Below are positions 22,601 through 24,298 of a DNA stretch of 64,000 nt, in pieces. The notes below the pieces were generated by a model. It saw only the letters and a program-made list of their open reading frames with translations, did no database searches and had not been told where the DNA came from. Within the stretch, counting starts at the first letter, position 1. Each line of letters begins with the position of its first letter. The stretch spans positions 1 through 64,000 of the forward strand of contig CACZHT010000003.1 in the NCBI GenBank assembly GCA_902781045.1, given 5' to 3'. This DNA is from an uncultured Bacteroidales bacterium. Its GTDB lineage: Bacteria; Bacteroidota; Bacteroidia; Bacteroidales; Muribaculaceae. The position numbers and the translations under genes are program-made.

Positions 22601-22635
22601 GGCGAGGCTTCGACAGGAGGCTTCGCCATTTTTTT
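22601..22635 (+). terminator. Intrinsic terminator
   Basis: GGCGAGGCTTC pairs with GGAGGCTTCGCC (G-U pairs allowed) and is followed by ATTTTTTT. It ends the pRiA4b ORF-3-like transcript just before the lipoprotein/radical SAM operon promoter. Confidence 0.8.
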
Positions 22636-22643
22636 CAAAAAAA

Positions 22644-22675
22644 CTTGCGCTTTTGGAATGAATTTTGTAACTTTG
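22644..22675 (+). promoter_or_regulatory. Promoter of the lipoprotein/radical SAM operon
   Basis: CTTG (22644-22647) and TAACTTTG (22668-22675) are spaced by 20 nt. The predicted start near 22682 leaves a short leader before the ATG at 22696. Confidence 0.65.
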
Positions 22676-22695
22676 CTCCATAAAATGTTGTGACA

Positions 22696-22983
22696 ATGAA
22701 AGGAACTGTAATAGGACTGAAAAAACTGGCCGTGCGTGGAGCGCTTGCTCTGGGGGCGTTGTTGGGACTCACCTCGTGCCCCAGGGTGTTGCAGCAGGAG
22801 AAGGTCTACGGGCCGCCACCCGTCTCACCCGACGCACCCATCAAGGACAGCATACAGGTGCGCAAGCTGGTCTATGGACCACGCCCGGTGTTCCGGCGCG
22901 ACACCATCAACGTGCTGGAGGATGTCTATGGCCCACCTGTCGAGATGCACGAGGACTCAGCTGCCGACGGACAAACAAACTGA
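22696..22983 (+). CDS. Small YGPP-motif lipoprotein, likely radical SAM substrate
   Basis: The 95-aa protein has a lipoprotein signal (ALGALLGLTSC) and then three repeats of a short motif: KVYGPPPVSPDAP, LVYGPRPVFRRD and DVYGPPVEMHED. I chose the ATG at 22696 over the upstream GTG because of the signal peptide and promoter spacing. It is followed after 17 nt by a shorter paralogue and then by a radical SAM/SPASM gene. This matches, from memory, the Bacteroidetes 'rSAM/lipoprotein' pairing in which small lipoproteins carry M/VYG-P motifs. The modification is unknown. Confidence 0.75.
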   Translation: MKGTVIGLKKLAVRGALALGALLGLTSCPRVLQQEKVYGPPPVSPDAPIKDSIQVRKLVYGPRPVFRRDTINVLEDVYGPPVEMHEDSAADGQTN

Positions 22984-23000
22984 AACGCTCAGTAGGATCG

Positions 23001-23237
23001 ATGAAACAGAAAGATAATCATATCTGCAAGAGGCTTGTTCGAGCATTGATGGCTGTGGGCGCAATGTTGGGACTCACGTCGTGTCCGGGACCCGTGGAAT
23101 GCGTCTATGGGCCACCGCCAATGATGGATACGACACAGGTGCAAGAGGACTATGACGATGGCAGTGAACAGTCTGTGCAGCACGAAGACGCAAGCCGGCG
23201 GCACGAAGACGCTGGTTCCTACAATTCTACCCACTGA
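23001..23237 (+). CDS. Second YGPP-motif lipoprotein
   Basis: The 78-aa paralogue of the preceding gene shares the signal region (AMLGLTSCPG) and one motif copy (CVYGPPPMMD), followed by a hydrophilic tail rich in Asp, Glu and His. The start at 23001 gives a proper lipoprotein signal. Its stop overlaps the ATG of the radical SAM gene (TGATG), so the two proteins are translationally coupled. This supports a substrate-enzyme relationship. It is too divergent in its tail to be a simple recent duplicate. Confidence 0.72.
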   Translation: MKQKDNHICKRLVRALMAVGAMLGLTSCPGPVECVYGPPPMMDTTQVQEDYDDGSEQSVQHEDASRRHEDAGSYNSTH

Positions 23238-24298
23238 TGACTACACGACAAATCATAGAACTCGAGCGGACACGGCGTGAGCGCAAGTGGCTCGAGAAGC
23301 ATCACCCGTTGCGGCAACTCTTCTGGGAATGCACGTTGCGATGCAACCTGGCGTGCCGGCACTGCGGCAGTGACTGCCGCAAAGAGGCCATTGTGCCCGA
23401 CATGCCGCTTGACCATTTTGTGGCCGTGCTCGACGATGTGGCGCAGATGACCGACCCGGCCGACGTGCTGGTCAACACCGTGGGCGGCGAGCCGCTGGTC
23501 AGACCCGACATCGTGGACTGTGGCAGAGCCATCACTAGCCGGGGATTCGCATGGGGCACTGTCACCAATGGCGTGCTGCTCGACCGGCAGATGCTCGACC
23601 GGCTGCTGGAGGCGGGCTTGAATACCATCGCTGTGAGTTTGGACGGATTGCAACCAGAGCATGACTGGTTGCGGGGCAACTCGTTCGATGGTGCCATGCG
23701 TGCCATCGGGTTGCTCGTGCAGACACCACGGCTGGTGTGGGATGTTATCACCTGTGTCAGCCAGCGCAACCTGGGCACATTGCAGCAGTTCAAGCAATTT
23801 CTCATTGACCACGGAGTGAGAAAATGGCGCATTTTTACTATCTTTCCTCAAGGCAGAGCCAGGATGAATCCCGAACTCTTCCTCGACCCACTGCAATATC
23901 GTCAACTGATGGACTTCATCGCACAGACACGCAAGGCGGGTGGCATAGACTTGTCTTACAGCTGCGAGGGGTTCCTCGGCGAATATGAGGGCGTGGTCAG
24001 GAAGCATATCTATCGCTGCGATGCCGGCACGATGACTGCATCGGTGCTGGCAGGTGGCGACATCAGCGGATGCATGAGCATCCGTGCGCATTATGCACAG
24101 GGCAACATCTATCGTGACAAGTTCTCGCAGGTGTGGCAGAATCGTTTTGAGCCGATGCGCGACCGCCGATGGATGAAGCGTGATCATTGTGCACGATGCA
24201 AGGCATGGGACTGGTGTGTAGGTGGACCCTTCCACCTGCGCGGCGACCAGGGCGAGATGCTGCACTGCAACTATTGCACCCTGTGCTCGGACACTTGA
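23237..24298 (+). CDS. Radical SAM/SPASM enzyme (rSAM/lipoprotein system type)
   Basis: The 353-aa protein has the radical SAM cluster motif C-x3-C-x2-C (RCNLACRHCG), the GGEPL segment (VGGEPLVRPD), and a C-terminal cysteine-rich SPASM-like domain (CDAGTMTASV, GGDISGCMSI, then HCARCKAWDWCVGG and HCNYCTLC) for auxiliary Fe-S clusters. SPASM enzymes typically modify peptides or proteins. Here the adjacent small lipoproteins are the obvious candidates, as the gene is translationally coupled to one of them. It runs convergent with the next gene, 12 nt away. Confidence 0.88.
   Translation: MTTRQIIELERTRRERKWLEKHHPLRQLFWECTLRCNLACRHCGSDCRKEAIVPDMPLDHFVAVLDDVAQMTDPADVLVNTVGGEPLVRPDIVDCGRAITSRGFAWGTVTNGVLLDRQMLDRLLEAGLNTIAVSLDGLQPEHDWLRGNSFDGAMRAIGLLVQTPRLVWDVITCVSQRNLGTLQQFKQFLIDHGVRKWRIFTIFPQGRARMNPELFLDPLQYRQLMDFIAQTRKAGGIDLSYSCEGFLGEYEGVVRKHIYRCDAGTMTASVLAGGDISGCMSIRAHYAQGNIYRDKFSQVWQNRFEPMRDRRWMKRDHCARCKAWDWCVGGPFHLRGDQGEMLHCNYCTLCSDT

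Follow-up and report, generated by a model that had tools for sequence, protein, structure and literature searches.

A Tyr-Gly motif couples TIGR04133 radical SAM/SPASM enzymes to Bacteroidales lipoproteins and marks candidate sites of splicease-like backbone editing

RESULTS

Two small lipoproteins and a radical SAM/SPASM enzyme form a three-gene unit

We analyzed a window of 64,000 nucleotides (the whole stretch of DNA under study) from an uncultured rumen Bacteroidales bacterium. Among named genomes, the nearest relatives come from rumen MAGs that carry the label Muribaculaceae. The locus of interest comprises the following features:

22601..22627, + strand: terminator-like hairpin, 11 pairs and then ATTTTTTT; a match to consensus only, of a kind that occurs at chance rate
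22644..22675, + strand: putative Bacteroidales-type promoter, CTTG, 20 bases and TAACTTTG, by match to a consensus
22696..22983, + strand: lipoprotein 1, 95 aa, LTSC lipobox (Cys28), YGP motifs KVYGPPPVSP, LVYGPRPVF, and DVYGPPVEM; putative substrate
23001..23237, + strand: lipoprotein 2, 78 aa, LTSC lipobox (Cys28), one motif, CVYGPPPMM; putative substrate
23237..24298, + strand: radical SAM/SPASM enzyme of family TIGR04133, 353 aa, CX3CX2C motif (C36, C40, and C43) and SPASM cysteines C261, C279, C318, C321, C327, and C344

The open reading frames agree with a preliminary description of this DNA, which had reported a 95-aa and a 78-aa lipoprotein, four copies of a YGP motif between them, and an overlap of the second lipoprotein gene with the enzyme gene at TGATG: the stop codon (TGA) of lipoprotein 2 shares one base with the enzyme's ATG (23235-23239). 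The hairpin sits between the operon and an upstream pRiA4_ORF3-like gene, and the gene 3' of the enzyme is convergent, hence the unit comprises three genes; it contains no transporter or protease gene. The promoter upstream of lipoprotein 1 is plausible only. There, TAACTTTG at 22668-22675 fits the Bacteroides -7 element and lies ~20 bases downstream of a CTTG; matches of this kind are common in the window. A sigma-70 promoter scan returned nothing useful.

Each lipoprotein is rich in K/R at its start and contains a hydrophobic stretch and the LTSC lipobox. The four YGP motifs in their two mature parts exceeded all 200,000 residue shuffles, of which three gave 3 motifs and none gave 4; at the DNA level, the YGP pattern was uninformative in the organism's own genome, matching 126 and 136 times, below the reversed control. 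Lipoprotein 1 has no NCBIfam or Pfam match, and lipoprotein 2 has no NCBIfam match and one insignificant Pfam match. Membership of TIGR04134 (cut-off 39.8 bits) was considered for both and rejected, as neither matches the model; a TIGR04134 search of the genome gave weak matches only, in frames of ~480-490 aa elsewhere. Fourteen lipoproteins of the window's genus have K10, R14, G20, G24, and C28 of the signal peptide and YGP of the mature part in common, and little else. The lipoprotein gene occurs in three tandem copies in two relatives (L199 and L200).

The preliminary description had also placed the lipoproteins at the cell surface. The Bacteroidetes lipoprotein export signal, K-(D/E)2 or S-D-D after the lipobox Cys (PMC5080379), is absent from both mature N termini (CPRVLQQEK in lipoprotein 1 and CPGPVECV in lipoprotein 2), so surface exposure is not supported by sequence, with the proviso that this signal varies among genera.

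The enzyme matches NCBIfam TIGR04133 over its whole length (residues 4-346; 482.6 bits, cut-off 425) and exceeds the Pfam cut-offs for Radical_SAM (PF04055) and SPASM (PF13186; 28.6 bits versus 21.5). These matches bear out two earlier proposals, a SPASM-like Cys domain and the Bacteroidetes rSAM/lipoprotein pairing, which NCBIfam names the TIGR04133/TIGR04134 "rSAM/lipoprotein system." The window resembles that system in having a full-member enzyme encoded right after small lipoproteins, here a lipobox protein with Tyr-Gly adjoining the enzyme. It differs in that its partners are short and apparently disordered with repeated YGPP, whereas TIGR04134 is a single-motif lipoprotein of 150 positions. 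The pairing had been said to have no characterized product, and our literature search likewise found no paper on a product or reaction of TIGR04133/TIGR04134, nor on spliceases with lipoproteins; Scott 2022 (Chem) may overlap.

Across 31 diverse aligned TIGR04133 enzymes, the cluster cysteines, the six SPASM cysteines, and two extra cysteines (C47 and C243) are invariant, and the usual CX2CX5CX3C pattern is without its fourth cysteine. C47 and C243 behave as a pair: they are present together in TIGR04133 and in an Agathobacter enzyme (L277) and absent together from Nostoc and GDL enzymes. An AlphaFold model of the window enzyme has a confident SPASM fold (pLDDT 88.4). Its closest solved structures by fold search are SuiB (best), anSMEcpe, PqqE, and BlsE, which indicates the SPASM fold only, and no close relative turned up when solved structures were searched by sequence.

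Tyr-Gly is the constant feature of TIGR04133 partners

We assembled 211 TIGR04133 enzymes and scored 168 immediate upstream neighbors for YG.{0,2}P. The motif was present in 138 of the 168, against 8.7 +/- 3.2 in residue shuffles of the same proteins. When one enzyme was kept per 62% cluster, 32/42 neighbors had it (1.9 expected), whereas open reading frames more than 900 bases from the enzyme were at chance level (29/374 versus 27.9 expected). Two apparent exceptions without YG adjoining the enzyme (L052 and L055) have a second TIGR04134 lipoprotein further upstream with AEYGTPYA (L157 and L164).

With signal and motif masked, at least three large scaffolds unrelated to one another emerged among the partners (101, 25, and 16 members), besides many short disordered proteins, down to ~50 aa. 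The largest scaffold is a TIGR04134-like group, in many of whose members the motif comes straight after the lipobox Cys (ACYGTP), and the second consists of helical-looking lipoproteins. Proteins of the third (~150-345 aa) nearly all lack a lipobox and have acyl-carrier-like or TonB-C-like ends, assignments supported by NCBIfam matches. No mature residue other than Tyr-Gly(-x-Pro) is common to the unrelated scaffolds. Proline occupies +3 in 89% of 218 motif sites, a figure biased upward because sites were picked for a nearby Pro. The flanking positions vary, with T, P, S, V, G, A, or M at +2 and V, E, M, C, L, or K at -1. The V-Y-G-P-P/R motif of the preliminary description holds for the window's two lipoproteins; as a family rule, V-Y-G-P-P was rejected in favor of Y-G-x-P, in which only Tyr and Gly are constant and Pro is usual at +3.

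This survey gives strong support to the earlier proposal that Tyr-Gly is modified, and we consider Tyr-Gly very probably the modified site. The motif could instead stay unmodified, serving for recognition or docking or as a functional element of the lipoprotein while the enzyme acts elsewhere. Such a role would fit the constant residues in the signal peptides (K10, R14, G20, and G24) and the range of one to three motif copies in these lipoproteins. A docking site, though, needs no multiplication within a substrate, the unrelated scaffolds have no other mature residue in common, and mini-lipoproteins of 50 aa (L088 and L091) have no separate constant core sequence. We regard an unmodified motif as improbable.

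Several variants of the partners were noted in passing. In two (L132 and L138), Tyr-Ala replaces Tyr-Gly right after the lipobox Cys (CYASQEP and CYAPAP). A second TIGR04133 subtype in the window's genus (L003-L006, L008-L014, and L140) is followed by proteins of 150-345 aa (MKKxNKxKK..LTAVGAVVAAGLTPG) that carry YGPP, YGAP, or YGVP, several with an acyl-carrier-like or TonB-C-like end; some genomes of the genus hold both subtypes. At two loci of this acyl-carrier subtype (L004 and L010), a conserved, highly charged open reading frame of 54 aa (MRKRNFEGDYNLLFEKQREYEE...) lies 9-12 bases upstream of the enzyme. Meanwhile, a QYG type is encoded away from the enzyme (L174, L184, L185, L186, L188, L190, and L191). 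These proteins have a type I signal peptide, and their mature part would start with QYG (VAAQYGVW and VLAQYGAP); several (among L174, L186, L188, L190, and L191) have a C terminus like that of T9SS cargo.

Motif-bearing lipoproteins co-occur with the enzyme

TIGR04133 is present in 94 of 393 sampled Bacteroidales genomes (E 1e-80 or better), and its carriers include cultured Bacteroides, Phocaeicola, Parabacteroides, and Xylanibacter (Prevotella). A phylum-wide sample of 396 genomes contained only 3 with TIGR04133 and was uninformative. When one genome was scanned for each species, at least 582 relatives of the enzyme were found, the best 80 of which are all Bacteroidota by title.

At the genus level, 16 of 25 genomes have the enzyme and nine do not. 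YGPP lipoproteins were found in eight genomes, all among the 16 and none among the nine (Fisher p ~0.012, computed by hand), and these eight are the genomes that have the window's enzyme subtype (8/8 versus 0/17 genomes, p = 9e-7). In two genomes, YGPP lipoproteins encoded on other contigs, unlinked to the enzyme, retain YGPP (L295, L297, L307, L308, L313, and L316). At the order level, TIGR04133 is present in 54 of 57 genomes with TIGR04134 versus 40 of 336 others (p = 1e-36). Of the three remaining TIGR04134 genomes, all drafts, two have lost the Tyr or the whole motif: the G721 orphan (L173) has NGSP where YGSP stood, and the G783 orphan (L176) has no motif left. The third, G643, keeps YG lipoproteins though no enzyme was found in the draft.

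The preliminary description had named YGPP lipoproteins in genomes lacking the enzyme as a finding that would refute its proposal. None turned up in the genus, where all eight genomes with YGPP lipoproteins bear the enzyme; at the order level, the 54/57 count and the two orphans that lost Tyr or motif agree with the pairing, and G643 does not. A separate observation concerns G441 (L187/L321), where the neighbor of a CYGTP lipoprotein is a TIGR04133 gene that has lost model positions ~42-247 through an internal deletion.

These data also bear on whether the genes are operon neighbors only, with no enzyme-substrate relation. Adjacency by itself proves nothing, and a few TIGR04133 loci (L072, L077, and L123) show no YG partner. 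Mere neighbors, however, would not account for the excess of the motif over shuffles immediately upstream of the enzyme, for unlinked copies that occur only with the enzyme, or for motif loss in two of three enzyme-less orphans. We regard a chance neighborhood as highly improbable.

TIGR04133 enzymes group with PlpX-type enzymes

The preliminary description was silent on chemistry, and a relationship to PlpX supplies a candidate reaction. For this comparison we took IPR026482 to be the InterPro entry of TIGR04103. The literature assigns PlpX to IPR026482 and shows it to work together with PlpY. PlpX excises tyramine at X-Tyr-Gly, with MYG and LYG as natural sites, and the PlpA2-derived tag PIRPLYGLPI contains YGxP (PMC10533398, PMC11002830).

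Several lines of evidence place TIGR04133 near these enzymes. First, in a tblastn search against plasmids, the best match outside TIGR04133 was a Nostoc TIGR04103 enzyme (E 2e-27). Second, in a tree with MftC, NirJ, TIGR04053, TIGR04347, and a Paenibacillus enzyme, TIGR04133 and PlpX-type enzymes grouped with support 100/99, which fell to 83/84 with two long-branch rows (PqqE and ACGX) kept; plasmids supplied the few outgroups, and TIGR04133 sits on a long branch. An AU test rejected MftC, NirJ, and TIGR04053 as sisters of TIGR04133. Third, C-x-H-C-G-S, W197, E251, and R255 of TIGR04133 recur in most or all PlpX-clade enzymes but rarely in other families. The window enzyme scored 114.3 bits against TIGR04103, far under the cut-off of 725, and is hence not a member of that family; what it has of PlpX is the clustering with PlpX-type enzymes and the X-Tyr-Gly sites, four here and others family-wide.

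The substrates show a similar mixture. x-Tyr-Gly is the target of PlpX and the putative target here, with several sites per substrate in both systems, and YGxP recurs in PlpX-type precursors, as in the LYGLPPELF C terminus beside the Nostoc enzyme (L193) and in a protein ending in RLLYGTPPVPLYQAPSK (RLLYGTPP) beside a PlpX-type enzyme of a Bacteroidota genome (L327). Against this, PlpX substrates carry Nif11/NHLP leaders, whereas no Nif11 or nitrile-hydratase-like leader was found in the window's lipoproteins, which have a lipoprotein signal peptide instead. The SPASM cysteines differ (C47 and C243 gained, the fourth Cys absent), as does the window operon in lacking transporter and protease genes. 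No PlpY-like protein was found by phmmer with a putative Nostoc PlpY-like open reading frame among those of 211 loci, a search that a diverged one could escape.

The TIGR03913 GDL-motif/DUF1843 systems belong to the same enzyme clade, and several of their small peptides start with PYG, LYG, or AYG. Unlike the window's lipoproteins, these peptides are cytoplasmic-looking, 55-60 aa long, and without a signal, and some have YA or YM for YG. Elsewhere in the PlpX clade, a 214-aa protein of a Bacteroidota genome (L329, in G278), whose gene follows that of a PlpX-type enzyme by ~35 bases, ends in six KYGYPC/KYGYPG repeats and is a strong candidate for a multi-site substrate of another PlpX-type subfamily; other PlpX-clade enzymes in Bacteroidota genomes had no such YG-repeat or YG-end neighbor.

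DISCUSSION

Candidate chemistry at Tyr-Gly

Since -1 and +2 vary while Tyr and Gly are fixed, the sites show the pattern expected if only Tyr-Gly reacts, as in tyramine excision. By analogy with PlpX, we somewhat favor tyramine excision as the reaction. The Tyr-Gly could also be modified with the backbone intact, for example by a cyclophane-type cross-link between the Tyr ring and a residue close by, β-hydroxylation, or epimerization. Many reactions are known among related SPASM enzymes, C-C cross-links occur in Bacteroides RiPPs (ItfD; PMC11002830), and the best fold match of the enzyme is the cross-linking SuiB. The sites, however, have no constant second residue at +2 or -1, a three-residue cyclophane requires a β carbon at +2 that Gly, one of the residues found there, does not have, and the sequence of the enzyme puts it with PlpX. 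We hold such chemistry to be possible but rather doubtful.

A thioether or sactipeptide-type link from the lipobox Cys or another Cys to the Tyr-Gly region might be suggested by the many TIGR04134-type partners with ACYGTP. In lipoprotein 1, however, the lipobox Cys is the sole Cys, is lipidated, and lies 10-51 residues from the motifs, and QYG- and DUF1843-type substrates have no such Cys. With no constant Cys near the sites, a thioether rule was rejected, and a link of this kind seems to us very unlikely indeed.

A model for the operon

In the model that we propose, one operon supplies a modifying enzyme together with two substrates for it. While the lipoproteins are still unprocessed and in the cytoplasm, the TIGR04133 enzyme would act on every x-Tyr-Gly-x-Pro site, and their signal peptide, which is unusually constant, may be the leader that the enzyme uses. 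Splicease-like tyramine excision would leave α-keto-β-amino residues. The modified precursors would then leave the cytoplasm through Sec, receive their lipid at the lipobox Cys, and remain in the membrane, so that the final products might bear reactive, electrophilic ketoamides, up to three in lipoprotein 1 and one in lipoprotein 2. This order of events is inferred: the enzyme must act before export because it needs a reduced cytoplasm, and modification ahead of lipidation has a precedent in DAG-RiPPs (e.g., DybA), where the metalloenzyme MNIO modifies a lipoprotein precursor in the cytoplasm before ordinary lipidation (PMC12636315). MNIO is not a radical SAM enzyme, its target is a C-terminal CPACGMG, and the chemistry is different.

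Taken as a whole, the proposal that TIGR04133, a large family of gut and rumen Bacteroidales, rewrites the backbone of lipoproteins and other secreted proteins at Tyr-Gly-x-Pro, giving α-keto-β-amino residues, seems to us evenly poised between right and wrong. In many relatives (those with ACYGTP), the lipidated N-terminal Cys itself would be changed.

Implications

TIGR04133, present in the NCBI family set without a known reaction, gains a defined target, Tyr-Gly with Pro usually at +3, and its nearest characterized chemistry is tyramine excision. If our proposal is true, backbone splicing would reach beyond exported RiPPs to the envelope lipoproteins of common gut bacteria, and reactive ketoamides would be a regular component of the Bacteroidales envelope, on proteins without a common scaffold. 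Spliced peptides have been reported to inhibit proteases (PMC10373908), and possible roles of the modified lipoproteins would be protease inhibition or covalent attachment. The short YGPP proteins could then serve as ready multi-site tags for ketoamide labeling.
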